64,000 bases of DNA from positions 62,001-126,000 of the forward strand of contig NZ_AUDE01000018.1 in assembly GCF_000425305.1 (NCBI RefSeq), in the 5' to 3' direction. This DNA comes from Psychroserpens burtonensis DSM 12212. Lineage in GTDB: Bacteria; Bacteroidota; Bacteroidia; Flavobacteriales; Flavobacteriaceae. This document shows positions 39,958 through 58,237 of this stretch, piece by piece. Made by a program: the position numbers and the translations under genes. The notes under the pieces are model-generated. The model saw only the letters and a program-made list of their open reading frames with translations. It did not search any database and was not told the DNA's origin. The stretch's first letter is position 1, and each line of letters starts with the position of its first letter.

Positions 39958-42900
39958 ATGAAAAAAAAATCCCTCATATTATTAGTAGCACTCCTTTGCA
40001 TTGCCTATACTTTTGCACAACAAGAAGCCTCCTACTGGTATTTTGGACAAAATGCTGGATTGCGATTTAATTCGGGTAACGGGACGGTTACTGCAATTAC
40101 AGATGGTCAAATAGATACTTTAGAAGGCTGTACTTCAATCTCAGATACTACTGGTGATCTTTTGTTTTATACAGACGGAAGAACCGTATGGAATCAAAAC
40201 CATGAAATAATGGCCAATGGTGATTATTTTGGTGGTACAGGACTTTTAGGTGACCCCTCGAGTACCTCCTCGGGACTAATCGTGCCAAAACCACAAGACC
40301 CAACGCAATATTATATTTTTACTGTTGATGAACCTCATCATTTAAATGCAAATGCTTTTCCCAATCAATATACAGGGACTTATCAAGGAGGGACTTCCGC
40401 CCCTGAAGAAGATGATGGTTTTAATAATGGATTTGCTTACTCTTTGGTCGATGTTACTTTAGATGGTGGTTTAGGAGATGTCGTAGACACTGAAAAAAAC
40501 ATTCCATTAATTACCTATGATGTGGCTAATCCGTTAGAGGAAGCCTATAAATGCTCTGAAAAAATTACAGCTGTAAAAGCAGATGATTGCTCTTCATTTT
40601 GGGTAATCACTCATTTTATTGATAAATACTATGCGTTTAAAGTAGATATTAATGGGGTAAATACAACCCCTGTAATTTCGACTGTTGGCCCTGAGGTTCC
40701 TATTTCTGGATATCGTCGAAATGCTCTTGGTTATCTTAAAGCCTCTCCTGATGGGTCTAAATTGGCAGTTGCTCATTTAGGCTTTGCGACGGAACAAGCG
40801 GGCAATGCTCCTGGTGGCGTCTATTTGTTAGACTTTGACAACGATACAGGAATTGTATCAAATTCGGTTGAGTTATATGGCCCAGATCAGGGTGATAGTC
40901 CTTATGGTGTTGAGTTTTCTGCGGAAAACAGAAAAATATATGCAAGCGTTGGTGCAGGAATTGGAGGCGGTGGAGACAGCACTATATACCAATGGGATTT
41001 AGAAAGTTCTGATATTCCTAATTCTATTGAAATCATTCATCAATCCACAGTATTTAGTGCTGGAGCGCTACAATTAGGCTTGGACAAACGTATATATAGG
41101 GCGCAAATTGATTTTAGTGTAAATTTTAATGTACCGTTTCCAAATACTGGAAACTTTATGGGTATCATTAATAATCCTGAAGAAACTGGTAGTGCCACTA
41201 ACTATGATGAAACGGGGATTCTACTGGATATTAATGGTGGGTTTCAAAACACAAGTCGTATTGGTTTACCACCTTTTATCCAGTCGCTTTTTAACTCACA
41301 AATTGATATCATCCAAAATGGGATTAGTACCACAGAGCTTAAATTGTGTACAGGTGACAGTTTCACTTTAACTGCAGAGGATGTTGCCGGAGGTACTTAT
41401 TCATGGACAAAAGATGGTATTGAATTAACCGAAATAACATTTGAATTAGATATTAACGAGCCAGGGTTTTATGAAGTTTTTATAGAACCGAACAGTGGTG
41501 AATGTCCTATTGAAGGTGAAGCTTTTGTTGGTGTATTTGACATCCCAACAGCCACACAACCTCAAAATATGGTCAATTGTGATTTTACTGAAGTTTCTGT
41601 TTTTGATTTAACCGCTCAAGACTCAGCTATTTTAGACACACAAGACTCTTTGCAATACTCGGTTCATTATTTCACTTCACAGGAAGAGGCAGATAATAAT
41701 ACCAACGAAATTATTGGCAATTTTACAGCGACTGAGAATCCGCAAATTATCTATGCTCGCGTAGATAATAACGATAACGTTAATTGTTACGCAACAACAT
41801 CTTTTACACTTACAGTTTCTATTACACCAGTAATAAGTACCCTTGATGATATTACAGTTTGTGATACCGATTTTAATGGGAATAATATGGACGGTTTTAC
41901 GACCATAACTTTAGATGGACTCAATGCAGGAATTCTATTTACACAAGAGCCCTTGTTATACGCGATAACATTTCATCCATCGCAGCAAGATGCAGATGAT
42001 AACACCGATATTTTTCTAAATTCTTATACAAATACAACAGCTTATACAGAAGAAATATTTGTGAGAATAGAGAATAATGCAAATACAGATTGTTTCTCTA
42101 CAGGTTCATTTATTCTGACTATAAACGATGCTCCCGACGCTATTGACGCCACATTAACACAATGTGATGAAGATGGGATTCCAGAAGGCTTCACCACCTT
42201 TGATCTCAATCAAGTATTTGATGATATTACTGGTGGTGGTGCTAATAGAACGATTCAGTTTTATGTGTCGCTAACAGATTTAGAAAATAACGAAGATGAA
42301 CTCAATGCAGATGCTTTTGAGAATTATTTTAATCCGCATATTATTTATGCCTTAGTCACTAATACAGATACTGGTTGTACTAACATTGCTGAGCTTAGCT
42401 TGCAAGCGAGTTCTACATCTTCAAATAGTACCACAATTGAAGTTTGTGATGATGATGGTACTGAAGATGGGTTCTATAATTTTAATCTTACCAGTGCTGT
42501 AGACGCTATTCTCTTTGGGATTGATCCCGATCTAGAGGTCAGATTCTATGAAACCTATCAAGAGGGTTTATTAGAAGATAATCCTTTAGGAAATAGTTTC
42601 ACAAATACAATAGCTTACAACCAAACGATCTATGCTCGCGTTGAAAACATGAATGCTTGCTTTGGCATAAGTGATATAGAACTCACTGTTTTTGAATTAC
42701 CTAATATCATCATCCAAGAAGATCTATATTATTGTTTAAATACATTCCCACAAACCATAATATTGACAGGAGGGTTAATTGATGATACGCCTAATAATTA
42801 CTATTACGATTGGTCTACAGATGAGGACGAATTTGAAATTGAAGTTAATGAGCCTGGAACTTATACAGTGAGAGTGACCTCTACAGAGGGTTGTTTTAAA

Positions 42901-43413
42901 GATAGAACGATTAATGTATTAGCATCAGATATAGCAACATTCGCAGAAATACAAGTGACAGATGCGACCTCAAATAACACCATTTCAGTCTTTGTAACTG
43001 GTGAAGGTGTTTATGACTATGCATTGGATAACCCTGCAGGTCCTTACCAAGAAAGTAACATCTTTGAAAATGTTAGTTTTGGATTTCATACCGTTTATGT
43101 TCGCGATATAGAAAATAATTGCGGAACCGTTAACGAGGTTGTATCAGTAATAGGGTTTCCTAAGTTTTTTACACCAAATGGAGATACTTTTAATCCTACT
43201 TGGCAAGTCAAAGGGATTTCTAGCAATTTTCAACCTAACTCCCAAGTTCTAATTTTTGATCGTTATGGAAAATTATTAGCTGAAATTGACCCACTCGGTC
43301 CCGGATGGGATGGTACATTTAATGGTTTTAATATGCCTGCAAGTGACTATTGGTTTGTTGTCACCTTAGAGGATGGTCGTACTTTTAAAAGCCATTTTGC
43401 ATTAAAACGATAG
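39958..43413 (+). CDS. T9SS type B protein: propeller-like N-terminus and four repeat modules
   Basis: An 1151-residue protein with signal peptide (ending TFAQ). About 25-440 forms a beta-propeller-like domain: ASYWYFGQNAGLRFNSGNG, LEGCTSISDTTGDLLFYTDG, and later RRNALGYLKASPDGSKLAV. An Ig-like part (LCTGDSFTLTAEDV...) follows, then four copies of the roughly 90-residue CDDxxDG...C module (first Cys motifs: NCDFTEVSVFDL, VCDTDFNGNNMDGF, QCDEDGIPEGF, VCDDDGTEDGF). After another Ig-like part comes the C-terminal type B sorting region: FPKFFTPNGDTFNPTWQVKG, IFDRYGKLL, GWDGTFNG, ASDYWFVV. It is exported by T9SS; the ligand is unknown. The next gene begins 7 nt downstream and shares the 3' 1281 nt. 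Confidence 0.88.
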   Translation: MKKKSLILLVALLCIAYTFAQQEASYWYFGQNAGLRFNSGNGTVTAITDGQIDTLEGCTSISDTTGDLLFYTDGRTVWNQNHEIMANGDYFGGTGLLGDPSSTSSGLIVPKPQDPTQYYIFTVDEPHHLNANAFPNQYTGTYQGGTSAPEEDDGFNNGFAYSLVDVTLDGGLGDVVDTEKNIPLITYDVANPLEEAYKCSEKITAVKADDCSSFWVITHFIDKYYAFKVDINGVNTTPVISTVGPEVPISGYRRNALGYLKASPDGSKLAVAHLGFATEQAGNAPGGVYLLDFDNDTGIVSNSVELYGPDQGDSPYGVEFSAENRKIYASVGAGIGGGGDSTIYQWDLESSDIPNSIEIIHQSTVFSAGALQLGLDKRIYRAQIDFSVNFNVPFPNTGNFMGIINNPEETGSATNYDETGILLDINGGFQNTSRIGLPPFIQSLFNSQIDIIQNGISTTELKLCTGDSFTLTAEDVAGGTYSWTKDGIELTEITFELDINEPGFYEVFIEPNSGECPIEGEAFVGVFDIPTATQPQNMVNCDFTEVSVFDLTAQDSAILDTQDSLQYSVHYFTSQEEADNNTNEIIGNFTATENPQIIYARVDNNDNVNCYATTSFTLTVSITPVISTLDDITVCDTDFNGNNMDGFTTITLDGLNAGILFTQEPLLYAITFHPSQQDADDNTDIFLNSYTNTTAYTEEIFVRIENNANTDCFSTGSFILTINDAPDAIDATLTQCDEDGIPEGFTTFDLNQVFDDITGGGANRTIQFYVSLTDLENNEDELNADAFENYFNPHIIYALVTNTDTGCTNIAELSLQASSTSSNSTTIEVCDDDGTEDGFYNFNLTSAVDAILFGIDPDLEVRFYETYQEGLLEDNPLGNSFTNTIAYNQTIYARVENMNACFGISDIELTVFELPNIIIQEDLYYCLNTFPQTIILTGGLIDDTPNNYYYDWSTDEDEFEIEVNEPGTYTVRVTSTEGCFKDRTINVLASDIATFAEIQVTDATSNNTISVFVTGEGVYDYALDNPAGPYQESNIFENVSFGFHTVYVRDIENNCGTVNEVVSVIGFPKFFTPNGDTFNPTWQVKGISSNFQPNSQVLIFDRYGKLLAEIDPLGPGWDGTFNGFNMPASDYWFVVTLEDGRTFKSHFALKR
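42133..43413 (+). repeat. long near-identical duplication, copy 1
   Basis: The last 1281 nt of the propeller gene recur in the next gene at 44561-45844. Stretches of 20 or more bases are unchanged; for instance GATCTATATTATTGTTTAAA occurs in both. Copy 2 is 3 nt longer because of one extra Asp codon in CDDDDG. See the copy 2 entry. Confidence 0.9.
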
Positions 43414-43420
43414 ATCCTTC

Positions 43421-45844
43421 ATGAACAAACTATTTTCAATTTTACTTTTATTTTTATTTTTTTCAACTACAGTTTTTTCTCAAACTCCTAACGATTGTGT
43501 AAATGCAATTCAAATTTGTGGAAATTCTAATATTGATTTAGATGTTGCTGGTGTGGGGATTCAAGAATCTTTTTCTAATGCCTGCGGAATGGTTGAAAAT
43601 AACACCATTTGGTTTAGATTAACGTTTGAACAAGCTGGTAATTTTGGCTTTATTTTGACTCCAAATAGTACTGCAATAACGGAAGATTATGACTTTTCTC
43701 TATTTGGTCCAACAGACTCCTGTTCTAATTTAGGTGCTGCTATTCGTTGCTCAACAACAAACCCACAAGCCGCTAACCAAGGTAATAATCTTACTGGCAT
43801 GAATACGACTGAAACTGACGTAACTGAGGGTCCTGGAGTAGATGGAGATAGTTTTGTAAATGAAATTGAAGTACTAAATGGTGAAACGTATTATCTACTC
43901 ATTGATAGACCCGTTGGAAATAGTCCGTTTAGTCTAGAATGGACTGGTTCTTCGCAGTTTCCAAATCCGCCAGAAAATCAATTGTCATTTGATGATGTCA
44001 TCAATTTAAATGCATGTGACACCATAGCTCCATTTGGAGATGGGATCACACAATTTGATTTAGAAATTAATACATTAGCGCTTGCTGGAAATCAAACTAA
44101 TATCGTGGTTTCTTATCATGACTCAGAAGAAAATGCTGTTTTAGGTCTCAATCCCTTAGCAAGCCCATACACGAATACCAGTAACTCGCAAGCCATCTAT
44201 GCAAGAATTCTAAACACCATTTCTTTGTGTTTTATTACTTCTAGAATAAACTTAAATGTCATTGAAATAGGTATCGTAACCCCTTCTGATTTTGAGCTTT
44301 GCGATAATGTTAATTTACCTAGTGGTATCTCAGAATTTGACTTAACACTAAAAATTCCTGAAATATTAAACGGATTAAATCTTAATGAATATACATTTTC
44401 ATTTCATTTAACTGAGGATAATGCCGTGACTAACTCTAACCCTATTCCATCAAATTTTCAAAACACAGCTCCTGACATACAAGAAGTCTTCGCTCGAGTA
44501 GAAGAAATTACGACAGAATGTTTTGGATACGTAGCTATAAATTTAATTATAATCCCTCCTCCAGATGCTTTTGACACCACAATAATACAATGTGATGAAG
44601 ATGGCATACCAGAAGGATTTACAACTTTTGACCTCAACCAGATCTTTGATGATATCACTGGTGGTGCTTCAAATAGGACAGTCGAATTCTACGTATCGCT
44701 TGCCGATTTAGAAAATGATGAAGATGAACTCAATGCCGATGCTTTTGAAAATTATTTTAATCCGCATATTATTTACGCACTCGTTACAAATACGATTACA
44801 GATTGCTCTAATATTGCTGAGATCACACTTCAAGCCAGTTCTACAGCTTCTAATCATACAATACTAGAAGTTTGTGATGATGATGATGGCACTGAAGACG
44901 GATTCTATAATTTCAACTTAAACGACACACTAAATGAAATTCTCTTCGGCATTTCTCCAGATCTAGAGGTTACTTTTTATAACAGCTATGAAGGTGCTTT
45001 AATTGAAGATAATCCATTAGGAAACAACTTTACCAATACCATACCTTATCAACAAACCATTTATGCTCGTGTAGAAAACATGAATGCTTGCTTTGGTATA
45101 AGTAATATAGAACTCACTGTTTTTAAATTGCCTAATATCGTCATTCAAGAAGATCTATATTATTGTTTAAATACATTCCCACAAACTATAATATTGACAG
45201 GAGGATTAATTGATGATACGCCTAACAATTACTATTACGATTGGTCTACAGGTGAAGATGAATTTGAAATCGAAGTTAATGAGCCCGGAACTTATACTGT
45301 GAGAGTCACTTCAACACAGGGTTGTTTTAAGGACAAAACGATTAATGTATTCGCATCAGACATCGCAACAGTCACAGAAATACAAGTGACAGATGCGACT
45401 TCAAATAACACCATTTCAGTATTTGTAACTGGAGAAGGTGTTTATGACTATGCATTGGATAATCCAGAAGGTCCTTATCAAGAAAGTAATATTTTTGAGA
45501 ATGTAAGTTTTGGATTTCATACTGTTTATGTTCGCGATATAGAAAATGACTGCGGTACCGTTAGCGAGATTGTTTCGGTTATAGGGTTTCCGAAGTTTTT
45601 TACACCAAATGGAGATACTTTTAATCCCAGATGGCAAGTTCGAGGGGTTTCTAATGATTTTCAACCTAACTCTCAAGTTTTAATTTTTGATCGCTTTGGT
45701 AAATTATTAGCCGAAATTGATCCATTAGGTCCTGGATGGGATGGGACCTTTAATGGTTTTACGATGCCTGCTAGTGATTATTGGTTCGTCATATCGTTAC
45801 AAGATGGTAGAACATTTACAGGCCATTTTGCACTTAAACGTTAA
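43421..45844 (+). CDS. T9SS type B protein with four repeat modules
   Basis: An 807-residue protein with signal peptide (ending VFSQ). The N-terminal domain (about 22-190) begins TPNDCVNAIQICGNSNIDLD and has AGNFGFILTPNST, VNEIEVLNGETYYLLIDR, a pattern seen in cleaved adhesion or lectin-like domains of Bacteroidota. Four copies of the CDDxxDG...C module follow (starting NACDTIAPFGDGI, LCDNVNLPSGI, QCDEDGIPEGF, VCDDDDGTEDGF), then an Ig-like part and the type B sorting region (FPKFFTPNGDTFNPRWQVRG). Copies 3 and 4 and the C-terminus come from the duplication shared with the gene 7 nt upstream. The two genes differ entirely in their N-terminal domains. Confidence 0.88.
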   Translation: MNKLFSILLLFLFFSTTVFSQTPNDCVNAIQICGNSNIDLDVAGVGIQESFSNACGMVENNTIWFRLTFEQAGNFGFILTPNSTAITEDYDFSLFGPTDSCSNLGAAIRCSTTNPQAANQGNNLTGMNTTETDVTEGPGVDGDSFVNEIEVLNGETYYLLIDRPVGNSPFSLEWTGSSQFPNPPENQLSFDDVINLNACDTIAPFGDGITQFDLEINTLALAGNQTNIVVSYHDSEENAVLGLNPLASPYTNTSNSQAIYARILNTISLCFITSRINLNVIEIGIVTPSDFELCDNVNLPSGISEFDLTLKIPEILNGLNLNEYTFSFHLTEDNAVTNSNPIPSNFQNTAPDIQEVFARVEEITTECFGYVAINLIIIPPPDAFDTTIIQCDEDGIPEGFTTFDLNQIFDDITGGASNRTVEFYVSLADLENDEDELNADAFENYFNPHIIYALVTNTITDCSNIAEITLQASSTASNHTILEVCDDDDGTEDGFYNFNLNDTLNEILFGISPDLEVTFYNSYEGALIEDNPLGNNFTNTIPYQQTIYARVENMNACFGISNIELTVFKLPNIVIQEDLYYCLNTFPQTIILTGGLIDDTPNNYYYDWSTGEDEFEIEVNEPGTYTVRVTSTQGCFKDKTINVFASDIATVTEIQVTDATSNNTISVFVTGEGVYDYALDNPEGPYQESNIFENVSFGFHTVYVRDIENDCGTVSEIVSVIGFPKFFTPNGDTFNPRWQVRGVSNDFQPNSQVLIFDRFGKLLAEIDPLGPGWDGTFNGFTMPASDYWFVISLQDGRTFTGHFALKR
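44561..45844 (+). repeat. long near-identical duplication, copy 2
   Basis: 1284 nt matching 42133-43413 in order and frame, covering two modules, the Ig-like part and the type B sorting region. The start of similarity is sharp, near a Pro-Asp-Ala segment, in both genes. This suggests recent duplication of the 3' half or gene conversion. Confidence 0.9.
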
Positions 45845-45896
45845 GAGTATTAGTGTAAAATAATTTATGTACTTTTAAAAATATCAATTACTTTCA

Positions 45897-47735
45897 ATGA
45901 GGTTTATCAAATTTATACAAATCGTATTCCTATTTGTTTTTACAATACCCTCTCATGCGCAAGACATTGAATTATTCGAGCAGTTTAATGGTCGTTATGA
46001 TTACACTGCTATTGGCAATACACTGAACCCTTTTGAGAATAATTTAGATGATAGTTTTTGCTTTCCATTAGAATCTTCGAGTGCTGATTTAGATTTATCA
46101 GACTCGACAGTAATTACAGCTGCCTATTTATATTGGGCTGGTTCTGGTACTGGTGACACTAATGTAATGCTTAACGGATTTTCAATTGATGCCGATGACA
46201 CTTATACTGTTGACTATATAGAAGTAGGTGGAACATTAACTTATTTTTCTTGTTACGCTGACATTACGAGTTTTATAATTTCCGAAGGAAATACAACCTA
46301 TGAATTATCTAATCTTGACATCACAGAAGCCCTAACAACCAATGACCGTTACTGCAGCAATCGTACAAATTTTGCAGGTTGGAGTATTTATATCGTATAT
46401 GAAAATGCTTCGCTACCATTAAACCAGGTGAACTTATATCAAGGTTTAGAAATCATCAATAGAAATAATCAGGAAAAAATTATCAATATTGATAATCTCA
46501 ATGTTATTGACAATGTTGGAGCTAAAATCGGGTTCCTGGCCTGGGAAGGTGACAACAGTTTGAATTTTGGAGAAAGTCTATCTATAAATAATACTATTAT
46601 TGCCAATCCTCCTTTAAATTTAAGTGATAACGCTTTTAATGGTACTAATACGTTTACGAACTCTAACACTCTCTATAATTGTGATTTAGATGTTTATGAT
46701 ATTCAGGATAATATCGCTATTGGAGATACTAGTGCCTCTATTAAATTAACTACTGGTGATTTTGATGACAACGGGCAATTTAGAGCTGACTTGATTATTA
46801 TTAATAATATAATCACGGTTTTAAATAGTCAGCTACCAGATGCCACAATTGTTTTAGAGGATTACAATGTTGATTGTGGTGATAGAACTATTTTGGTGGA
46901 TTACACTGTATTTAACGTGAACAGCACAGAACTATTACCTGCAAACACACCAATTGCCTTTTATGCTGAAGGCACAATCATTGGGCAATCACAAACTCAA
47001 AATGACATTGCTATCGGTGCTTCAGAAAGTGGTACCATTTCATTAACACTACCAGACGAAATAGGTGACATTATCTTATTAACATTAGCTGTAGATGACG
47101 ATGGATCAGGAAATGGTATTGTTGCTGAAATCACAGAAACAAATAATATTGACGATGTTATTTTAGAATTGTTAGTCCTACCTCCTGTACAAATTTTACC
47201 CAACCAAATTGGTTGTAATGAAGGTTTTAATAGCGCTACTTTTAATTTAATTGACATTTTTTTGATTTCAGAAAGCTTATTAACCGATATTACATTTTAT
47301 GAATCATTTGAAGATTTGCAAGCAAATACAAACGAAATTATTAACCCAGAAAGTTATTCTAACGTTAACAACCCACAAACCCTATTTGTAAAAGTTGATA
47401 ACTCACCTTGTTATGATATTTATGAGTTTCAGGTTTCTGTAGATAATTGTCCGCCTCATGTTCCTGAGGGTTTTTCACCTAACAATGATGGCACTAACGA
47501 TTGGTTCAATATTCAAGGACTTTATGATATTTTTGAACATCATCAACTTAAAATTTTTAACCGCTATGGAACTTTAATTTTTGAGGGAAATAATAATAAC
47601 AAATGGTATGGACGCATCAACAGAGGATTAAATAATGACGGTAAAATAGTTCCTGTTGGCACCTATTTCTATATTCTTAATCCTAATGAGACTAATTTTA
47701 GACCTCAAATGGGGTGGGTTTATGTAAATTATTAG
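45897..47735 (+). CDS. T9SS type B (gliding-motility-associated C-terminal domain) protein with one module
   Basis: A 612-residue protein with signal peptide (ending SHAQ). The N-terminal part (about 20-300) contains VITAAYLYWAGSGTGDTNVM and GWSIYIVYENASLPLNQVNLYQ, a pattern of DUF3344-like adhesive beta domains; a CARDB-like segment follows (DATIVLEDYNVDCGDRTILV). One copy of the CDDxxDG...C module lacks the acidic loop (GCNEGFNSATFNL...NSPCYD). The C-terminus is a classic gliding-motility-associated sorting domain: PEGFSPNNDGTNDWF, LKIFNRYGTLIFEG and GWVYVNY. It lies 52 nt after the previous gene, so it may share the operon. It ends 34 nt before the convergent peptidase gene. Confidence 0.85.
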   Translation: MRFIKFIQIVFLFVFTIPSHAQDIELFEQFNGRYDYTAIGNTLNPFENNLDDSFCFPLESSSADLDLSDSTVITAAYLYWAGSGTGDTNVMLNGFSIDADDTYTVDYIEVGGTLTYFSCYADITSFIISEGNTTYELSNLDITEALTTNDRYCSNRTNFAGWSIYIVYENASLPLNQVNLYQGLEIINRNNQEKIINIDNLNVIDNVGAKIGFLAWEGDNSLNFGESLSINNTIIANPPLNLSDNAFNGTNTFTNSNTLYNCDLDVYDIQDNIAIGDTSASIKLTTGDFDDNGQFRADLIIINNIITVLNSQLPDATIVLEDYNVDCGDRTILVDYTVFNVNSTELLPANTPIAFYAEGTIIGQSQTQNDIAIGASESGTISLTLPDEIGDIILLTLAVDDDGSGNGIVAEITETNNIDDVILELLVLPPVQILPNQIGCNEGFNSATFNLIDIFLISESLLTDITFYESFEDLQANTNEIINPESYSNVNNPQTLFVKVDNSPCYDIYEFQVSVDNCPPHVPEGFSPNNDGTNDWFNIQGLYDIFEHHQLKIFNRYGTLIFEGNNNNKWYGRINRGLNNDGKIVPVGTYFYILNPNETNFRPQMGWVYVNY

Positions 47736-47769
47736 ACATTTAAAGTGTTACCGTATGCTTTACTGTTTA

Positions 47770-49860
47770 TTACAGCTCATCAAATAAGAAACCATATATG
47801 TAGCAGTTTTCTTCTAGTTTATCATACATATTTATAGCTCCAAAATGTCCTGTTCTTTTTTGTGTCCATAATAAAATAGGATGTTCTTGAGATGGATTAT
47901 TTTGAAGTCTAGCAGCGAACTTAAAGGAATGTAAAGGAGGTACTCGATTGTCATAAAGTCCAGTAGTAATTAACATTGATGGATAATTCACGGTGTTGTC
48001 AATATTATGATAGGGAGAATACGAATAGAGATTATCAAAATCTTGTTGATTTTCAACATCTCCAAATTCCAAAATATTTGTTGGCGTAGCTCCAACGGTA
48101 AAATTTGAAAGTCTAAGCATGTCTAAAGCTCCTACATTAACTTCTGCTGCTCCAAAAAGATCTGGGCGCTTTACGACAGAGGCGGCAATTATGAGTCCTC
48201 CGTGAGAACTACCACGAATGGCTATCTTTTTTGCTGCTGTATATTTCTGTTCTATTAAAAACTCTGCTGCTGATATAAAATCTTGAATTCCGTTTTGTTT
48301 ATTTAGCCCTTTACCCTTCTCCCACCATTGCTTACCGAGCGTTCCACTTCCTCTAATATCATCATATGCAAAAGCACCGCCATTTTCAATAAAATATACA
48401 ATACCTGGATCATATGATGATGAACTCACACTACCATATCCACCATAGGTGCTCATTAAAAAGGGTGTTACAGAATTTTGGGAGAGACTATCCTTATACA
48501 CAATAGTGATGGGAACCTCTGCTCCATCTTTAGACGTAAAAGTTTTTTTGATAAACTTATATCCTTTAGGATCAAAGCCGACTTTAGTTTGATTAATAAG
48601 GTCATAATTAAAAGTATCTAAATCTAGTTTATATAATACACTTGGGATGGTGAAAGATTGTAAATAAAAGAAGAACTCTTTAAAGGTCGTATTGTAACTC
48701 ATCCCATCAACAGATAAACCATTTGGTGTTTTTGTTTCTTTTATAACGCGCCCATCACGATCTACCAATGAAAAAAGATTGCCCTCTTTAGTAAGGTACA
48801 ATGACAAGATATTCTCCTCGAGAACTCTAAACTCTAAAAAGATGGCACCATCGTAGACTGCAGAGACCACTTTAAACTTAGTCGGTTCATTTTTAGGTAT
48901 AGAAATAACTTGCTTTTTATCGTCAAGATATGTCGTCGCATAAATTTGATTCTCTTTAAAATTAAACCCTTCTAAATCATACTTAATATTCATTAAAAAG
49001 GGTTTGAAATTTAAATCATTATCGATAGCATCAAGATAGAAATAACTAAAAATGTGAGTCTCGATATTTTCCTTTTTAATAATGAAGAAGGACTCATCTG
49101 GAGCTCCATACATACTAATATAATCGCTCTCTCTCCTTGATTTAAAAATGAGAATATCATCAGAAGGACTTGAATCAATCTTATGATACATTATTGCAGG
49201 TTTTTGTGTCTTCGCTCTCAACGAATCAAATGGGAATTTCTCGTAAAAAAAACCATTTCTTAACCAATGTAAATTAGATGATTTTGTGTGTTTTATAATT
49301 TCAGAATAAGAACGTCTTTTTTTTACTTTTACAATTCTAATCTCTTTCCAGTCACTACCATTGCGATTGTATTGAAATGCCAAATGACCATTGGTCCTAG
49401 AAGGCTTATAATACGAAATATCTATGTCGCCTTTGGAAGGTATGGAAGAGGATTTCACCAAAACATCATAATCATCATCTAAGCCATATTTATAACATAG
49501 CGATCTTGTTGAACCTGTACTTGTATAGCATGTCGAAAAATAAATTCGATCCTTAGAAGATTCGTCGAAATTTTGACCAGAATACCCTCCAGTTCTCTTA
49601 AACATTAATTTGTTCATTTGAGGTTCAATCTATGCTTGTCTAGATGTTTTTCTCAAAAATCTTAGTGACAACTTATTTTGCGCCTTTATCCAATCTTTCA
49701 CCTCGTCAGTTTCTTGTGATTCCAACCATTGATAATTATCAATGACATCAATATTGTGATATGTGTTAATAACTGGTTGTTTCGATGATTCTGGATATTC
49801 TATCTGGGAAATCACAAATTGTGGTATGAAAAAAATCAAAAATAATAAGGAATGTCTCAT
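47770..49860 (-). pseudogene. prolyl oligopeptidase (S9A) interrupted by one in-frame TAG
   Basis: The frame covers 697 codons, a normal length for prolyl oligopeptidase, which cuts short peptides after proline. It has a signal peptide (ending FVISQ), the N-terminal YQWLESQETDEVKDWIKAQN typical of the family, a seven-bladed propeller region and the alpha/beta-hydrolase end. The triad is complete: Ser552 in RGSSHGG, Asp in LYDNRVPP and His in RTGHFGA. Codon 77 (49632-49630) is TAG, and the frame continues without shift: TSRQA-stop-IEPQMNKL. One base change from a sense codon explains it. A restart at the ATG 49617 would lack the signal peptide and the first helices. Error, fresh inactivation and readthrough all remain possible. 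Confidence 0.85.
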
Positions 49861-49978
49861 CAGTAGTTTGGAATAAAAATTCGAAAAACAAATATCAAAA
49901 AAAAAATAAACAATTAACTAATGTTTCTAAAATTGTGTTGTCAATCTTCTAAAAACCATTTAAATGTTAAAGTTTAAT

Positions 49979-50017
49979 GTATTTCGTCGTGTTATTTAGT
50001 ATTTCGTCTTAAATAAC
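49979..50017 (+). promoter_or_regulatory. paired 10-bp direct repeats with an inverted repeat upstream of the giant T9SS gene
   Basis: GTATTTCGTC occurs at 49979-49988 and again at 49999-50008, exactly 20 bp apart. GTTATTTA (49991-49998) and TAAATAAC (50010-50017) form a perfect inverted repeat around the second copy. The block lies 82 nt before the ATG. Two turns of helix between copies suit a dimeric activator binding one face of DNA. Confidence 0.45.
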
Positions 50018-50098
50018 GCTACTTTCACACTTCAGTAGAAATATTGGATATCACCCCAAATTATAATAGCGATAATGCTATAATTTAACCGCTTACAG

Positions 50099-53000
50099 AT
50101 GATATTTTTAAAAAAATCCCTCAGTACTATCTTATGCTTATTATGTTACGTAGTAAGTTCTCAACAGATTAGTGTCGATAATTCATTTACAGAGCAACAA
50201 CTTGTAGAAAACAGTCTTTCTCTAGGATGTGTTGAAACGTCCAATATTCAATCATTAGTTAATGGCCAAGTCAACGGGTTTCAAAGTTTTGCATATTTTG
50301 AACGCGCTGATTCCAACTTTCCTTTTGAAAACGGAATCATGCTATCTACAGGAAATGCAGCTTCTGGAGGAAACACACAAAATACAGCTGTATTAAATGA
50401 AGGCCAACCAGATTGGGCTACCGATCCAGATCTTGAAACTGCTTTAGGTATTACAGGAACTCTTAATGCAACATCAATAGAGTTTGATTTTGCTTCTGTA
50501 TCTAACCAAATACAATTTAATTACATACTAGCTTCTGAAGAGTATTTTGGAGATTTCCCTTGTAACTACTCTGATGGTTTTGCATTTCTAATTAAAGAAG
50601 CTGGCACTAGCGATCCTTATATAAATATTGCTATAATTCCAGGTACAACTACTCCTGTTAACACAAGTACTATTCATGATGAAATTGTAGGATTTTGTAG
50701 TGCTTCAAACGAGGTTTTTTTTGAAGGTTACAATATTGGCGACACCAATTATAACGGTCGTACTAGTGTAATGACAGCCACAGCTAGTATTACGCCTAAT
50801 GTAACCTACCATATTAAATTAGTTATCGCAGATCAAACAGATAAAAATTATGATTCTACAGTATTCATTGAAGGTAATAGCTTTAATGCTAGTGTTGATT
50901 TAGGCACCGATATTCAAACCTGTGCAGATACAGTTACACTTGATGGTAATATTGAAAATCCTTTAGCAACCTACTCATGGTTTCTAAATAATACTTTAAT
51001 TACTGCAGAAACACAAGCTACTATTAATACAGCTCAATCTGGTACTTATCGTGTTGAAATACAAATTCCGTTAGCGGGTTCTAATTGTCTTATAGAAGAT
51101 GAAATTATAGTCACCTTAAGTTCTACGCAAGCGGCTCTACCTATTTCAAATTATGAATTATGTGATGACGCAAGTGGAGATGGTATTGAAATTTTCGATT
51201 TATCTACCAAAGATGCAGATGTTCTTGCATCAGTTCCTGCTTCTAGTTATCATATTTCTTATCACTTATCAGCAATAGATGCTCAAACTGGCACGAGTGC
51301 TATGTCTGGCTCATTTCAGAATACATCAAACCCACAAACAATATTTGTTAGAATTGAAGACATTATAAATGGCTGTTTAGCGTTTCAGAATTTTAATTTA
51401 GTCGTCAATCCATTACCAGTTATTACCGCACCAACTATTTTAATTGAATGTGATGATATAACAGCAGACGGATTTACAACTATTGATTTATCTCAAAAAG
51501 ATAATGAAATTACAAACGGAAATTTAGATTTAGTAGTCACGTATCACTTTACACAAAACGATGCAGACGATGGAATGAATGCGATCCCACTACCTTATGT
51601 AAATACAAATCCCAATGAAACACTTTTTGTAAATGTTACTAATAGCATTACCGGTTGCTCTATAACGACAACATTAAATATTGAAGTCCTTAATAATCCC
51701 GTTATTAATACAGACGAACATTATATTGATGCTTGTGACGCAGATTTAGACGGATTTGCTCTTTTTGATTTAACATCGATTATTGATGATGTTCTAGAAG
51801 GTTTAACTGGTGTAAATGTTACGTTTCATGACACACAAGAAGATGCTGATTTAGGAGTTAACCCTATTGCAGACGACACTAATTATACCAATATAATTAT
51901 CAATGAACAACTTCTTTACATACGGGTTGAAAATACGACTACGGGTTGTGCTTCTATAACACCTATTGAGATACACACTAATTTATTACTCACAGCAACA
52001 GATATTAAAGATTTTCGTGCCTGCGACGAGGACAATGATGGTCAAGAAGAATTTTATCTCCTTGATATCATTGAAGATATTCTTGATAATTTGGAAGATA
52101 TTATGGATTATGATATTGATATCGATTTTTATTTAACAGAAGACGATAGAGACAATCAAACCAATCCAATTGATACATCGGTTTCTTTTGAACCAACATC
52201 AAACCCACAAATTTTATACATTACATTAACAAGTCCTACTTGTCAAGAAGTATCGCAGATTGAACTTTATATCGATCCCATTCAAGTTTTTGATCCTATT
52301 GGTCTTCAGAATGATTGTGATACAGATCAAGACGGTTTTACGAGTATAAATTTAAGTCAGTTTGATAGTTTAATCACTAATAATCTGGCAGATTTTACGG
52401 TTACTTATTTTTCTTCGGAAGCTGACGCAGAGGCAAATACAAACGCATTACCAGCATTCTATACGAACATCTCTAATCCAGAAACATTTTATGCGAGAAT
52501 TACTTTTGGAGAAACAGGTTGCTCAGATATTAATAGCTTTGACATTGAAGTGTTGCCTGCTCCATTATCTAATGAGCCATCAGGTATTATCATTTGTGAT
52601 GATAACCAAGACGGGATTTCTAATATAGACTTAGACATCAAAGTTTCAGAAATTGTTAATGATACAACCAATAGGAGTATCACATTCCATAATACTATAT
52701 CTGACGCACAAACAGCATCCAATCCAATTGCGACAACCTCATCTTATCCAGCAGTTACCGAAACAGTTTTTATAAGAATTGAAAATACAATTACAGGATG
52801 TTACTCAACCGAAAGTTTGGAAGTCATTGTAAATACACTTCCAAATTTTATAGCGATCTCTAACTACAAAATCTGTGAAGATTCGAGTGATGACATTGGT
52901 GATTTTGTATTTTTCACAAAAGATATTGAAATTTTAAATGGTCAAACTGGTAAAGACGTATTTTACTTTTTAAATCAAACAGATGCAGATACTAATACAA

Positions 53001-55777
53001 ATGCAATCGATAAAAATACAGCTTTTCAAAACACTTCAAATCCACAAACAATTTTTGTTCGTGTAGAAAATACTTCAGATTCAGACTGCTATGGTACTTC
53101 ATCTCTCACGATAGAAGTTGGAACTAATCCCGTTATCAATGAACCTACAAACTGGTTTGTTTGTGATGATATTTTAAATGATGGCAGTGAATTATTTGAT
53201 CTTAATGTTAAGGTAGAAGAAATTTCTGAAGGTGTAAGTGACGCTTTAGACGTGACATTCTACGCTACATTAGCAAATGCAGAAAATTTAACAAATGCGC
53301 TTCCACTTCAATATGCCAATACACTTAATCCACAACGCATTTTTGTTGTTGTAGACAATGGGACCATTTGTAATTCCATAACAAGTTTTGAACTCAATGT
53401 AATACAAGTGCCCGAAGTAAATCTTGCCCAGCCTATTGAGATGTGTGATGATAACTACGACGGTATTGTAGTATTCAATCTTACACAATCTGAGTTTGAA
53501 ATTCTAGATGTCAGACACGATAATATTACAGTAACTTATTTTGAAACTATGGACGATTTGGATGCCAATACGAATCCTATTCAAAATCCAAGTACCTATA
53601 GCAATACTGCAAACCCACAAATCATATTCATAAAAATAAACAATACAATTTCAAATTGCTTTGCCGTGGTTCCTTTGGAACTTATTGTTAATTTACCTCC
53701 AGTAATTAATGATTTTCAAACCTATGAAATTTGTGATAACGATACCAATAGTTTTAATTTAAATACTATACCACCTGAAATAGTCGATGATTCAACAGAT
53801 AAGAATTTTAGCTATTACAGTAATTTAGCAGATGCTCAAGCAATTACAAACGCTTTAGATGCTAACTACACTTACGTAACAACAAGTGATTCTATATTTA
53901 TTCGTGTATCCTTTATCTCTACGTCTTGTTTTGCTATTTATAATTTTAATTTAATTATTAATCCTGTACCAGTAGCTCATCCACCTGCAGACTTGCAGGC
54001 CTGCGATGATCAGTCAAATGACAATTTAGAAGGGTTTAATTTATTCTCACAAAACGATGAAATTCTAGGTGCGCAAAACGCCTCTAACTTTACAGTGAGC
54101 TATTATTTAAATACAACCGATGCTAATACAGCTTCCAGCGCTTTACCAGATAGTTTTACTGGGCAAGATGGACAAACAATTTTTGCTAGAGTAGAAAATA
54201 ACATTACAGGATGTTACAGTATAACTCAATTTGATTTGATTGTTAATATGTATCCAAACCAACCTAATGCATTACAAATGTGTGATGCAAACTTTGATGG
54301 ATTTACAAGTTTTGATTTGATACAATCTGAGATCTATTTATTTAACACAATAAACCCAGATATTATTATTACCTATTTTGAAACACAAGACGAATTGGAT
54401 GCCAATAGTAATGCTATCCCAAATCCAAGTGAGTATACAAACACATCTAACCCACAAACAGTATTTATAAAAGTCTATAACCAAGTAGCAGATTGTAGTA
54501 CCTCTGTCAGTTTAGATTTAGATGTCAATTTACCACCTGCTATTAATGCCTTTGACATTTACCAAGCTTGTGAAAACGATTCGAATACTATTGATCTAAC
54601 TGACATTAATACAACTTTACTCGAGCAAACAGCAAATGTATTAGTCACTTATTTTTCTTCGGAAAATGATGCTCGAAATCAAGAAAATATTTTAAACACA
54701 GATTACACATATCTTAGTAATAACGACATGCTTTTTGCTAGAGTTGCGTTTTCTACCACACATTGCTTCGTCATTCATCAATTCACATTACAAATCAACC
54801 CATCACCAATTGCAAACCAAACGAGTGATATAGAAGCTTGTGACGATGATTTTGATGGTTTCTTTGAATTTAATTTAGCACAACAAAACGCTCAAATTAT
54901 AGGTAGTCAAAACCCGAATAACTTCACAGTCACATTCTATCTGGATGCTATTCTAGCAGAAGAAGGAACAGATGATTTAGGAGTAACATATGAGGCTTTA
55001 ACTGGCGAAACCATTTATACAAGAATAGAAAACAACACGACTGGATGTTTTAGTATAACCTCATTTATGACCGTTGTATTTGAGAAACCTTTGCTAGACG
55101 TTGGTGATCAAGTCATTTGCTTAGAAAACCTCCCACTTATGGTAAGTGCAAATACAAATAATACTGGAGATTCGTACCAATGGTCAACTAATGAGGCAAC
55201 ATCCGAAATTGAAATAACAGAAATAGGAACCTACTCTGTGACGGTAACCACACCAAGTGGTTGCGAAACAACAGAAGTTTTTACAGTTACAGAATCTGAA
55301 GCTGCAACAATTGAAATAACAGAAACTATTGATTTCTCAGACCCAAACAATATTACAGTTACGGTTAGTGGAATTGGAAGCTATCTATATCAATTAGATA
55401 ACAATCCACCTCAAGAATCTAATGTTTTTGAAAATGTAAGCTTAGGGTATCACACGTTGAGAATTATAGATTTAAACGGTTGTGCAGAAGTCACCAAAGA
55501 AATTGTTGTTATTGACGCACCTAAATTTTTTACACCAAATAACGATTCATACTTTGACACATGGCATATTACAGGTGTAGAAACCTTAACTGGGACCATA
55601 ATCTATATCTATAATCGTTATGGTAAATTATTGACTACACTAGACTCTAATTCTAGAGGTTGGGATGGATTATATAATGGAAATCTAATGCCTGCTTCAG
55701 ATTATTGGTTTGTTGCAGACGTTAAAAAAGGCAATATTGCTTTCCAAGTGAAAGGCCATTTCTCTTTACGTTTATAA
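50099..55777 (+). CDS. giant T9SS type B protein with choice-of-anchor L domain and 14 repeat modules
   Basis: An 1892-residue protein: signal peptide, then a choice-of-anchor L domain (about 25-265: FENGIMLSTGNAASGG, YILASEEYFGDFPC, VTYHIKLVIADQTDKNYDST), an Ig-like domain (about 268-345), fourteen modules of about 90-100 residues (about 346-1666), two short Ig-like parts and a type B sorting region (PKFFTPNNDSYFDTWHITGV, YNRYGKLLTT, GWDGLYNG, ASDYWFVA). Each module begins with Cys-Asp-Asp and an acidic DG loop, continues F-D-L, V-T-Y-F, N-T-x-N-P-Q, I-F-V-R-V-E-N, and ends near a second Cys (TGC). Modules 10 and 13 lack most of the loop. The protein is exported by T9SS and probably acts as a long surface stalk; the ligand is unknown. 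No repeat looks broken. Confidence 0.9.
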   Translation: MIFLKKSLSTILCLLCYVVSSQQISVDNSFTEQQLVENSLSLGCVETSNIQSLVNGQVNGFQSFAYFERADSNFPFENGIMLSTGNAASGGNTQNTAVLNEGQPDWATDPDLETALGITGTLNATSIEFDFASVSNQIQFNYILASEEYFGDFPCNYSDGFAFLIKEAGTSDPYINIAIIPGTTTPVNTSTIHDEIVGFCSASNEVFFEGYNIGDTNYNGRTSVMTATASITPNVTYHIKLVIADQTDKNYDSTVFIEGNSFNASVDLGTDIQTCADTVTLDGNIENPLATYSWFLNNTLITAETQATINTAQSGTYRVEIQIPLAGSNCLIEDEIIVTLSSTQAALPISNYELCDDASGDGIEIFDLSTKDADVLASVPASSYHISYHLSAIDAQTGTSAMSGSFQNTSNPQTIFVRIEDIINGCLAFQNFNLVVNPLPVITAPTILIECDDITADGFTTIDLSQKDNEITNGNLDLVVTYHFTQNDADDGMNAIPLPYVNTNPNETLFVNVTNSITGCSITTTLNIEVLNNPVINTDEHYIDACDADLDGFALFDLTSIIDDVLEGLTGVNVTFHDTQEDADLGVNPIADDTNYTNIIINEQLLYIRVENTTTGCASITPIEIHTNLLLTATDIKDFRACDEDNDGQEEFYLLDIIEDILDNLEDIMDYDIDIDFYLTEDDRDNQTNPIDTSVSFEPTSNPQILYITLTSPTCQEVSQIELYIDPIQVFDPIGLQNDCDTDQDGFTSINLSQFDSLITNNLADFTVTYFSSEADAEANTNALPAFYTNISNPETFYARITFGETGCSDINSFDIEVLPAPLSNEPSGIIICDDNQDGISNIDLDIKVSEIVNDTTNRSITFHNTISDAQTASNPIATTSSYPAVTETVFIRIENTITGCYSTESLEVIVNTLPNFIAISNYKICEDSSDDIGDFVFFTKDIEILNGQTGKDVFYFLNQTDADTNTNAIDKNTAFQNTSNPQTIFVRVENTSDSDCYGTSSLTIEVGTNPVINEPTNWFVCDDILNDGSELFDLNVKVEEISEGVSDALDVTFYATLANAENLTNALPLQYANTLNPQRIFVVVDNGTICNSITSFELNVIQVPEVNLAQPIEMCDDNYDGIVVFNLTQSEFEILDVRHDNITVTYFETMDDLDANTNPIQNPSTYSNTANPQIIFIKINNTISNCFAVVPLELIVNLPPVINDFQTYEICDNDTNSFNLNTIPPEIVDDSTDKNFSYYSNLADAQAITNALDANYTYVTTSDSIFIRVSFISTSCFAIYNFNLIINPVPVAHPPADLQACDDQSNDNLEGFNLFSQNDEILGAQNASNFTVSYYLNTTDANTASSALPDSFTGQDGQTIFARVENNITGCYSITQFDLIVNMYPNQPNALQMCDANFDGFTSFDLIQSEIYLFNTINPDIIITYFETQDELDANSNAIPNPSEYTNTSNPQTVFIKVYNQVADCSTSVSLDLDVNLPPAINAFDIYQACENDSNTIDLTDINTTLLEQTANVLVTYFSSENDARNQENILNTDYTYLSNNDMLFARVAFSTTHCFVIHQFTLQINPSPIANQTSDIEACDDDFDGFFEFNLAQQNAQIIGSQNPNNFTVTFYLDAILAEEGTDDLGVTYEALTGETIYTRIENNTTGCFSITSFMTVVFEKPLLDVGDQVICLENLPLMVSANTNNTGDSYQWSTNEATSEIEITEIGTYSVTVTTPSGCETTEVFTVTESEAATIEITETIDFSDPNNITVTVSGIGSYLYQLDNNPPQESNVFENVSLGYHTLRIIDLNGCAEVTKEIVVIDAPKFFTPNNDSYFDTWHITGVETLTGTIIYIYNRYGKLLTTLDSNSRGWDGLYNGNLMPASDYWFVADVKKGNIAFQVKGHFSLRL
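53420..54256 (+). repeat. three-module block, copy 1 (modules 9-11)
   Basis: Residues 1108-1386 (279 residues). Module 9 has TYFETMDDLDANTNPIQNPS, module 10 has the short CDNDTNSFNL and YTYVTTSDSIFIRVSF, module 11 has PADLQACDDQ and NNITGCYSIT. The same three kinds follow in the same order in the next block. Confidence 0.8.
54257..55096 (+). repeat. three-module block, copy 2 (modules 12-14)
   Basis: Residues 1387-1666 (280 residues). Module 12 has TYFETQDELDANSNAIPNPS, module 13 the short CENDSNTIDL and YTYLSNNDMLFARVAF, module 14 SDIEACDDD and NNTTGCFSIT. Its order and length copy the block just before it, and the shortened middle module is shared. Confidence 0.8.
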
Positions 55778-55842
55778 TCTTAACATTTTTTAAAGCATAA
55801 CATTTCAATCTATACCTATCTTTACAGTTGGAAAAATTGTGA

Positions 55843-58173
55843 ATGAATACAACCATTAAAATCTTATGCTTCCTATCTACTATATTGACTTTTGGTCAAA
55901 ATATGATAGTAGACAGTCAATCTTTTACCGCACAAGAGTTAATTGAAAACATTCTAATTGATAGTAACTGTATTGATAATGTGACCGTTACCAATGTCGT
56001 AGGCGGTAATTTTTCTTCATCAGATCAAAGCTATGGTTTTTTTGACGCTACAGGAACAACGTTCCCGTTTGATACTGGTATCGTTATGAGTACTGGGCGA
56101 TTATCAAATGTACCAGGACCAAATACAACACTTAGTGACGACGATGCACCAAATTGGACTGGTGATACTGAATTAGAAACCATCCTAAACGAAACCAATA
56201 CAACCAACGCAACCATTTTGGAGTTCGATTTCACATCTGTCGCAACAGAAATTAGTTTTCGCTATATTTTTGCTTCGGAAGAATATCAAGAAGGCAACCC
56301 AAATACCTGCAATTTCTCAGATTTATTTGGCTTTTTAATTCGTCCTATTACTGGTACTCAGTACACGAATATAGCCTTAGTCCCAGGAACTAATACACCT
56401 GTAAAAGTAACCACAGTGCACCCTGAAATCCCTGGTGGTTGTCCGGCAGAAAATGAAGCTTACTTTGAAAGCTTTAACCCTTCTGACGCTCCAATAAATT
56501 TTAACGGACAAACAAAAATATTAACTGCTACCGCTCAAACGATGCCTAATGAAACCTACCATGTAAAATTAGTAATTGCAGACGAGCAGAATTTTAGATA
56601 TGACTCTGCAGTATTTTTAGAAGCTGGAAGCTTTAGACTCTCAACAGATTTAGGTCCAAATTTATTAATAGAAAGCGGAAATGCTATTTGCGGTGATGGC
56701 ACCTACACTATTCAAACAAATGAACCAGGAACTAATAATACCTTCAAATGGTTTAAAGATGGAGCCGAACTTATTGGTGAAATTAATGACAACTTAGAGG
56801 TTTCTGAAACTGGAATATATTCTGTAGAACTCACAAAAGACACCTGTGTTTTATTTGGTGAAGTTACTATCGAATATACAGAGAACCCTATAGTTTTCGA
56901 TTCGATTTTAGTTGAATGTGCTCTAAACCTAAACGGTTTAGCGTTTTATAACCTATTTGATAGCAATGATGAGGTCACTAATAATGATTCTTCAATTTTT
57001 ATTTCAGATTTCTTCTTAACGGCAGGTGACGCAGAACAAGACATCAATGCGATTGTTGGCGCCAATAATTTTGAAAATTCGAATACGTTTCAAACGGTTT
57101 ATGCACGTGTTGAAAATCAAGCTAATTGTTATAGTATTGCAGAAGTAGAACTTCAGGTCACCAACAACACTATTTTCATTCCAGCTCTAGACGCTTGTGA
57201 TGGTGCTATTGTAGATGGTTTCGCAGATTTCAATTTAAATGATATTACGAGCGCTATTGCAGATCAACTTCCGGTAGATGCCACAGTTACTTTTTATGCT
57301 AGCGAAATGGATCTTTCTACAGAAACCAATAACATCTCTGGCACATTTCAGAATACAATACCAAACACACAAACTCTATTTGTAAAAATAGAAAGCAACA
57401 ATCAATGTAACTCTATTTCTATTGTAGAATTAATTGTTTTATATACACCTGTTTTATTAGAAGATGAATCCTTTATTTACTGCTTAAACAGCTTTCCAGA
57501 AACCATTACTTTAATTGGAGGTGTTCTTAATGATGCGCCCAACAACTATTATTACGAATGGTTATTTAACGGTACGACTACAGAAGTTAATACGACTTTT
57601 AATGACATCAACGAAGTTGGGAATTACACCGTCATCGTAACAGATCCAAATGGGTGCTCGTCTAGTAGAACGTTAACCGTTTTACCCTCTAGTAATCCAG
57701 TGATTGAAGATGTGATTATAATGGAAGGCACACAAAATAGCACAGTTACTATTATCGCTTCTGGTGATGGTGATTTTGAATATGCCTTAGATAATCCAGA
57801 TGGTGTTTTTCAAACTGAAAACACGTTTACCAATGTCACTGCTGGTTTTCATACCATTTTTGTTCGCGATACTAATAGTTGCGGAATGACAGAACAAGTG
57901 ATTTCTGTATTAGGATTCCCTAAGTATTTTACGCCTAATGGTGATACTTATAATGAGAGATGGCAAGTCAAGGGCGTGAATGCAGACTTTAATCAAGGTA
58001 CAGCTATTACCATTTTTAATCGCTATGGAAAATTGCTTACGCAGTTCACCAACGAAAGTGCTGGATGGAATGGCACTTTAAATGGGCAACCTCTACCAAG
58101 TGATGATTACTGGTTTGTCGTAACACTTTTAGATGGAAGAACATTTACGGGTCACTTTGCGTTGAGACGATAA
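55843..58173 (+). CDS. T9SS type B protein with choice-of-anchor L domain and two modules
   Basis: A 776-residue protein with signal peptide (ending TFGQ). The choice-of-anchor L domain (about 20-265) reads FPFDTGIVMSTGRLSNVPG, RYIFASEEYQEGNPNTC, TYHVKLVIADEQNFRYDSA; it is a paralogue of that of the preceding giant. An Ig-like part, two CDDxxDG...C modules (VECALNLNGLAFYNL and DACDGAIVDGFADFNL) and a second Ig-like part follow, then the type B sorting region (FPKYFTPNGDTYNERWQVKG, GWNGTLNG, DDYWFVV). The last 200 residues resemble those of the two duplicated genes at 39958 and 43421 but are more diverged. It begins 65 nt after the giant gene. Confidence 0.88.
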   Translation: MNTTIKILCFLSTILTFGQNMIVDSQSFTAQELIENILIDSNCIDNVTVTNVVGGNFSSSDQSYGFFDATGTTFPFDTGIVMSTGRLSNVPGPNTTLSDDDAPNWTGDTELETILNETNTTNATILEFDFTSVATEISFRYIFASEEYQEGNPNTCNFSDLFGFLIRPITGTQYTNIALVPGTNTPVKVTTVHPEIPGGCPAENEAYFESFNPSDAPINFNGQTKILTATAQTMPNETYHVKLVIADEQNFRYDSAVFLEAGSFRLSTDLGPNLLIESGNAICGDGTYTIQTNEPGTNNTFKWFKDGAELIGEINDNLEVSETGIYSVELTKDTCVLFGEVTIEYTENPIVFDSILVECALNLNGLAFYNLFDSNDEVTNNDSSIFISDFFLTAGDAEQDINAIVGANNFENSNTFQTVYARVENQANCYSIAEVELQVTNNTIFIPALDACDGAIVDGFADFNLNDITSAIADQLPVDATVTFYASEMDLSTETNNISGTFQNTIPNTQTLFVKIESNNQCNSISIVELIVLYTPVLLEDESFIYCLNSFPETITLIGGVLNDAPNNYYYEWLFNGTTTEVNTTFNDINEVGNYTVIVTDPNGCSSSRTLTVLPSSNPVIEDVIIMEGTQNSTVTIIASGDGDFEYALDNPDGVFQTENTFTNVTAGFHTIFVRDTNSCGMTEQVISVLGFPKYFTPNGDTYNERWQVKGVNADFNQGTAITIFNRYGKLLTQFTNESAGWNGTLNGQPLPSDDYWFVVTLLDGRTFTGHFALRR

Positions 58174-58237
58174 CCTAAAGTTTTAACAATCAATTCATTA
58201 ATATTACTTAACTTCAAGTTTAAAATATTAGTTATTG

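Follow-up and report, generated by a model that had tools for sequence, protein, structure and literature searches.

Five neighboring genes of Psychroserpens burtonensis encode candidate surface rods of mostly set length built from one shared module

Introduction

Long adhesins built from tandem domains are usually thought to be elastic in length. The locus analyzed here lies in a stretch of 64,000 nucleotides of Psychroserpens burtonensis DSM 12212 (Flavobacteriaceae; contig NZ_AUDE01000018.1, positions 62,001 to 126,000; hereafter the window) and raises the question of whether this view holds for a group of proteins in which one and the same part recurs in very different numbers. Five neighboring open reading frames on the plus strand (39958-58173), coding for proteins of 1151, 807, 612, 1892 and 776 residues (P0001 to P0005), carry a module of approximately 94 residues in 4, 4, 1, 14 and 2 copies, respectively. 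All five proteins have a type B C-terminal sorting domain (CTD) of the type IX secretion system (T9SS), which scores over both curated cut-offs (TIGR04131 and CHU_C), and in all of them the modules sit between a separate N-terminal region of at least 185 residues and the C-terminal part. An earlier note on this DNA, made from the sequence alone, had counted the same 25 modules and had pictured a set of surface stalks that carry different heads and grow by module duplication. Is the number of modules in each gene the passing state of a growing repeat, or a set property of that gene?

The results presented here favor, with a probability that we put at roughly 0.6, the view that the cluster encodes cell-surface rods of mostly set length, which bear different heads and undergo rare gains or losses of three modules. 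The picture of surface stalks with different heads is supported by the five type B CTDs. Free growth by module duplication is not supported for these genes: the module number of the four shorter stalks is constant in the genus genes examined, and the long one has 11 modules in nearly all the relatives counted outside the genus and changes in steps of three within it. It is this constancy of count in a long rod that constitutes the surprise of the locus.

Conservation of module number

A hidden Markov model (HMM) built from the 14 modules of P0004 detects each of the 11 modules in the four remaining proteins (E values per domain of 6.7e-13 to 5.3e-19), and the reverse model, built from those 11 modules, recovers 14/14 modules of P0004 with a worst E value of 7.2e-12, the database size being set to 1000 in both cases. 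None of 500 residue-shuffled proteins matches either model. The counts of the earlier note are exact. The median pairwise identity of the 25 modules is 27%. Beyond the window, the module is carried by 39 of 41 genomes of the same family that one sample listed, many of these genomes belonging to a single genus.

Within the genus, in which some of the genes counted are cut at the ends of the available stretches outside the array, genes of the P0001 type have 4 modules in 18/18 cases, those of the P0002 type 4 modules in 6/6 and those of the P0003 type a single module in 19/19. The P0005 type has 2 modules in 20 of 21 genes, the remaining one being cut by the end of its stretch, and a further gene of the genus, encoding 940 residues, has 2 modules in 4/4 cases. 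Genes of the P0004 type were found in 22 of 23 genomes and present a different pattern: among 34 genes, 21 have 11 modules, 11 have 14 and two have 17, with no other count apart from one truncated frame. In a separate family, whose proteins have about 2200 residues, 14 modules are present in 4/4 single-contig genomes of the genus examined; three of these four genes are cut at the end of the stretch ahead of the array.

The analysis was extended to a sample of 120 genomes of the family, about one per genus, 65 of which match P0004 at 1e-60. Module number was counted in the 40 genomes outside the genus with a P0004 match of at least 722 bits starting in the head; below this set the next head matches reach at most 315 bits, one fragment apart. 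The 45 genes obtained in this way have 11 modules in 43 cases, the other two having 17 and 9, and, counted by genus, 39 of 40 keep the number 11. Given its prevalence outside the genus, 11 is the standard module number of the P0004 type, and the 14 modules of the window are 11 plus three.

Evolution of the long array

A constant number might conceal a turnover of modules within the array, and the position-by-position comparison speaks against this. Among the 11-module genes of 39 genomes (150 random pairs), the best match of a module in another genus is at the same array position for 93.8% of modules; the long array does not turn over its modules, which are orthologous by position. Exact DNA repeats in the P0004 array reach at most 18 bases, the tandem repeat search reports one 42-base array within it, and neighboring modules share 20-35% identity. 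In the genes of the family, 454 spacings between modules range over 88-105 residues while the number holds, and small insertions and deletions are thus tolerated.

Superimposed on this stability is a period of three. In the window array, similarity between modules is raised at a lag of three modules to a level that none of 5000 permutations attains, and with the first eight modules taken by themselves, 18 of 5000 permutations do so. The corresponding numbers of permutations (of 5000) for other genes are 1, 0, 16 and 16 for the whole array and 1891, 92, 78 and 166 for the first eight modules; the mean of the 21 11-module genes of the genus gives 2/5000, and the family mean gives 51/10000 at lag three versus 7333, 6097 and 6455 at lags two, four and five. 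At the end of the P0004 array, modules m9-m11 (53405-54253) and m12-m14 (54242-55087) are copies of one triplet. These are 47, 39 and 43% identical, module by module; their DNA is 58% identical, with no aligned exact run longer than 13 bases.

The history of this triplet was addressed with a tree built from the heads, modules 1-8 and the tails. Seven changes are needed on it to account for the 11-module label, and well-supported branches force at least five; even so, the label shows clustering on the tree (5/500 shuffles as low). The sister gene of the window P0004, which lies in another genome of the genus (G412; support 100/100), has 11 modules. Module 9 is 83% identical between the two genes, as compared with 47% between modules 9 and 12 of the window; the two triplet copies thus probably predate the divergence of the genes, with G412 having lost one copy. 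The fitted joint between first and second copy is at triplet residue 164 in G412, while in the other eight fitted 11-module genes it is at residues 108-120 in seven and at residue 40 in one (G409); joints at such different places make more than one event likely. The two triplet copies of the window are about as distant from each other as from modules 9-11 of other genera. An 11-module ancestor, an old gain of a triplet and later losses would fit these comparisons, although the polarity of gain and loss could shift with uneven rates or with exchange of alleles between species.

Properties of the module

Both cysteines of the module are present in 25/25 window modules. They are kept in 1119 of 1126 modules gathered from the stretches of the genus and the family, with exactly two cysteines in the aligned module in 1117, figures that are biased toward retention by the use of an HMM of cysteine-bearing modules. 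In view of this conservation one disulfide per module is likely, as the earlier note had suggested. The same note had likened the acidic loop next to the first cysteine to a DxDxDG calcium site. As a tendency, the acidic loop is real: the pattern C-[DEN]-x(2,8)-[DNE]-G, in which loop length is variable, occurs in 782 of 1126 modules. The strict form C-D-x-D-x-D-G is found in just 4/25 modules of the window (8/25 in a relaxed D/N form) and in 315/1126 overall, and the calcium loop was on this count rejected as a general feature of the module.

No Pfam, NCBIfam or PDB sequence family searched describes the module, in agreement with the earlier failure to link it to a named domain. Pfam yields weak, scattered matches to four families for the 25 window modules (best E value 0.0023, in two modules) and scattered matches for 70 diverse modules, the commonest being Ig_7 in 4/70 (best E value 0.0018). 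Over its cut-offs, NCBIfam names the CTD and the choice-of-anchor L heads alone. Against PDB sequences, a profile of 25 modules gives one chance match (E value 0.37) and a profile of the 70 modules none at an E value of 10. Ig_7 and DUF11 were considered as candidate families; neither these nor any other Pfam or NCBIfam family searched includes the module. Literature searches on the module, on choice-of-anchor L and on GhpA (grappling hook protein A) with type IX secretion turned up no paper; the sources cited below come from searches that yielded work on T9SS, SprB and ixotrophy.

A structure prediction, which the earlier note had proposed, indicates an immunoglobulin-like (Ig-like) module. 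The AlphaFold2 model of modules m5-m6 of P0004, based on an alignment of 31 rows from the window and a related stretch of the genus (L039), has a mean predicted local distance difference test score (pLDDT) of 92.2 and a predicted template modeling score (pTM) of 0.73, each module being modeled as strand-strand-helix-strand-helix-strand-strand-strand. In a Foldseek search of the PDB, ranks 1-7 are all chains of GhpA (E values of 3.6e-7 to 1.8e-6), with 15-19% identity, a template modeling score (TM) of 0.35-0.37 over the pair and a root mean square deviation (rmsd) above 7 A. Next in rank come Ig tandems, those of Sidekick and titin among them; such tandems are seen among the best 50 of the 154 matches at E values of 0.001 or less. 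The module is hence predicted to be Ig-like and nearest in fold to GhpA, to which we do not claim homology. To judge from the low TM and the high rmsd, it is probably the individual domains that match, and the pair of modules is probably arranged in a way other than in the GhpA chains.

Organization of the gene cluster

The first gene of the cluster encodes P0001 (39958-43413), with modules m1-m4 at 41539-42699 and the type B CTD at 43150-43410 (TIGR04131, E value 2e-32), and is followed by that of P0002 (43421-45844), with modules m1-m4 at 43976-45130 and the CTD at 45581-45841 (TIGR04131, 4.1e-32). Modules m3 and m4 of P0002 are 81 and 77% identical to m3 and m4 of P0001. P0003 (45897-47735) has its single module at 47175-47450, ahead of its CTD (47457-47726; CHU_C, 1e-20). 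P0004 (50099-55777) has a choice-of-anchor L head (50204-50884; NF038133, 3.3e-43), modules m1-m14 (51122-55087) and its CTD at 55511-55771 (TIGR04131, 9.5e-31). Likewise, P0005 (55843-58173) has a choice-of-anchor L head (55978-56634; NF038133, 9.6e-49), modules m1-m2 (56878-57447) and a CTD at 57913-58170 (TIGR04131, 1.4e-32). Judged by eye, the N-termini of all five proteins resemble Sec signals. The two choice-of-anchor L heads bear out the corresponding part of the earlier note, and its suggestions of a propeller, a lectin-like and a DUF3344-like head for P0001-P0003 find no Pfam match over the curated cut-offs. The CTD of P0003 scores 74 bits with CHU_C and 42 with TIGR04131, the other four scoring 45-48 and 106-112; to judge from these scores, the deviant CTD may mean a different shuttle.

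The cluster is interrupted on the minus strand by a gene for an S9 prolyl-oligopeptidase-like peptidase (47770-49617), which has no obvious signal sequence by eye and which is absent between the corresponding two genes in the related stretch L039. A hybrid two-component regulator (Reg_prop, Y_Y_Y, HisKA, response regulator and AraC domains; 58235-62110) starts 61 bases past the cluster; in L039 the hybrid regulator does not adjoin the cluster and uvrB, recognized by eye, comes next instead. Across the genus (the cluster of the window and stretches L072-L094), gene order is kept and gene content is not: the P0002-type gene and that of 940 residues are present in some cases and missing in others, and there are one to three genes of the P0004 type in tandem.

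Other contigs of the same genome carry further genes with the module. On C5, C9 and C12 (L095, L096 and L097), three of them break off at contig ends, 23 residues past the last module, and the last 351-629 bases of these broken genes are 99-100% identical between contigs. For three copies of the CTD at the ends of C11, C29 and C30 (L153-L155), identity is 99.7-100% over 323-367 bases. One near-identical C-terminal cassette seems to be common to several adhesin genes, with collapse of the assembly there, as if heads had been swapped or the end homogenized. At the start of C12 (L097, 1-1871), internal DNA repeats of 72-85% identity lie beside one module, and this gene is perhaps a more recently grown array than those of the window.

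Interpretation

It seems reasonable to postulate that the five proteins would be exported and anchored to the outer membrane as rods, each consisting of a tandem of Ig-like modules of about 94 residues that are probably locked by one disulfide apiece. The outer end of each rod would bear a different head, a choice-of-anchor L domain in two of them, so that the heads might be held at set distances from the membrane by a graded set of 1, 2, 4 and 11-17 modules. Rod length would be, for these five genes, a set property and not a freely varying repeat; P0004 would descend from an 11-module rod kept across many Flavobacteriaceae genera, the window copy having one three-module unit in addition. The rods may serve in adhesion. 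According to PMC12618676, type B CTD proteins are known or predicted adhesins, the CTD deciding between the gliding machinery and static display.

Several observations weigh against this proposal. The 45 genes counted outside the genus form a high-scoring set, from which short or very divergent orthologs would escape, and the 9-module gene among them (1/45), which is without positions 10 and 11, breaks the three-step rule. In the four single-contig genomes of the genus mentioned above, orthologous choice-of-anchor L genes (in L149, L150, L151 and L152) carry 2, 1, 2 and 3 modules; these genes are 61-75% identical over the head region and are thus orthologs or near-orthologs. Gain or loss of single modules does occur, then, in another module-bearing family of the genus, and the notion that module number is fixed in every family was rejected on this evidence. 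As to anchoring, PorP/SprF barrels appear to hold type B CTD proteins on the surface, as stated in PMC9143113, and the eight PorP_SprF genes of the genome are all on other contigs, none being in the window. With no such gene on this contig the five proteins would be orphan substrates, and orphan substrates that share a shuttle are known (PMC12618676). Finally, the model of a choice-of-anchor L head is poor (pLDDT of 54, from four sequences). The corresponding fold search gave no match at an E value of 0.001 or less, and the best 50 rows at E values of 0.008-0.045 (CBM6, Eph-receptor, Emp46 and Flo1 together with many picornavirus capsids) were treated as no result.

The fixed number and the step of three might also be devoid of functional meaning. 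The modules would be too different to recombine, as the 20-35% identity between neighbors suggests, and an old triplet duplication would let crossovers add or remove three only. This explanation, for which we see odds that fall just short of even, draws further on the homology of the triplet copies in the order A-B-C and on the nine genes inspected among the 21 11-module genes of the genus, which look like in-register joins with the first copy on the left and the second on the right, at the different places given above (residue 164 in G412, 108-120 in seven genes and 40 in G409). However, the triplet copies, at 58% DNA identity and with no exact run above 13 bases in an array whose longest exact repeat is 18 bases, would now be expected to recombine scarcely more readily than any other pair of modules; the 11-module label needs seven changes on the tree, at least five of them forced, though it is clustered; and single-module change happens in another family with the module. 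The step of three could instead be structural, if each module turned the rod by about a third of a full rotation; the direction of the head would then be kept by whole turns alone, and selection would remove other lengths. Steps of three are the sole changes among the 34 P0004-type genes of the genus; the period-three similarity reaches the first eight modules of the window array and extends across genera, and 11, 14 and 17, as well as the 14 modules of the separate family, are all a multiple of three plus two. Yet the 9-module gene exists, the families with 4 modules, with 1 module and with 1 to 3 modules do not follow, one gene with 17 modules lacks the period in its first eight (1891/5000), and homology spacing alone predicts the same step. 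We consider the structural explanation quite improbable, and the triplet homology, which needs no new principle, was given the higher probability of the two. That the long Flavobacteriaceae rod is genetically set at exactly 11 Ig-like modules throughout the radiation of the family, and altered by threes alone for the reason that three make one turn and the head has to retain its orientation, appears, in like manner, hardly probable.

Two further explanations concern the modules as such. They might be the binding part, with a metal-dependent ligand site in the acidic loop and with a number that sets avidity, an unlikely proposition in our view: the loop pattern in 782/1126 modules and the position-specific conservation across genera, which indicates that modules are not interchangeable filler, argue in its favor, but the strict loop is restricted to 4/25 and 315/1126 modules, loop length varies, and a separate N-terminal region precedes the modules in 5/5 proteins. 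Alternatively, the cluster might encode ordinary tandem-repeat adhesins of phase-variable length. The different counts in five neighboring genes, the close relationship of m3-m4 between P0001 and P0002 and the variation from 1 to 3 modules in a related family of the genus are what such adhesins would lead one to expect. Nevertheless, the four shorter families are constant in the genus, 11 modules are found in 43/45 P0004-type genes of 40 other genomes, the array is free of near-identical DNA repeats and its modules are orthologous by position; single-unit variation in copy number among relatives is not seen in the five families of the window, one 9-module gene excepted, and free variation is accordingly a very improbable account of them. 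Rods of mostly set length remain our preferred reading of the cluster, and they offer a natural system in which to ask what determines how far a surface protein extends, with defined relatives of 11, 14 and 17 modules, some of them side by side in one genome, for testing.

Relation to known systems

Among the closest known systems is the family Ig_7, 'Ig-like domain CHU_C associated' (PF19081), which has a similar C ... GC pattern and occurs in the same class of proteins; P0005 has a sub-threshold match to it between head and modules (E value 5.5e-4, 20.6 bits versus a cut-off of 27.3). The module nonetheless differs from Ig_7: none of the window modules matches it at an E value of 0.1, the 4/70 matches among diverse modules are weak, and a profile-profile comparison of the module with the window's own Ig_7-like domains gives a probability of 6.5%. 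The SprB repeat family (PF13573) does not appear in the Pfam results for the five proteins, and no sprF gene lies in the window. What the five proteins have in common with SprB and further adhesins of this type in Flavobacterium johnsoniae (PMC12618676) is the type B CTD, together with a predicted surface display and adhesin function.

At the level of architecture, the surface filament GhlA of Litorilinea aerophila is likewise built of beta domains in a long series, in its case DUF11, and was found by its authors via its similarity to GhpA (PMC13319060). The modules differ from it in that DUF11 matches neither the window modules, among the families listed, nor the 70 diverse modules, among the best 25 of 28 families. 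In fold, the closest likeness is to GhpA itself, of Aureispira sp. CCB-QB (PDB 9fls, 9fly, 9flu, 9flp, 9flw, 9flv and 9flx), a long surface filament that takes all of the first seven fold matches. GhpA is secreted by the T9SS (PMC11205867), has 5,898 residues and assembles as a heptamer (PMC13319060). The likeness is structural, the 15-19% identity appearing in structural alignment only; the heptamer and the hooks are traits of GhpA of which the five proteins of the window give no sign here. Even so, the link in fold points to the possibility that the grappling hooks of the T9SS and the surface rods of flavobacteria are made from the same kind of part.

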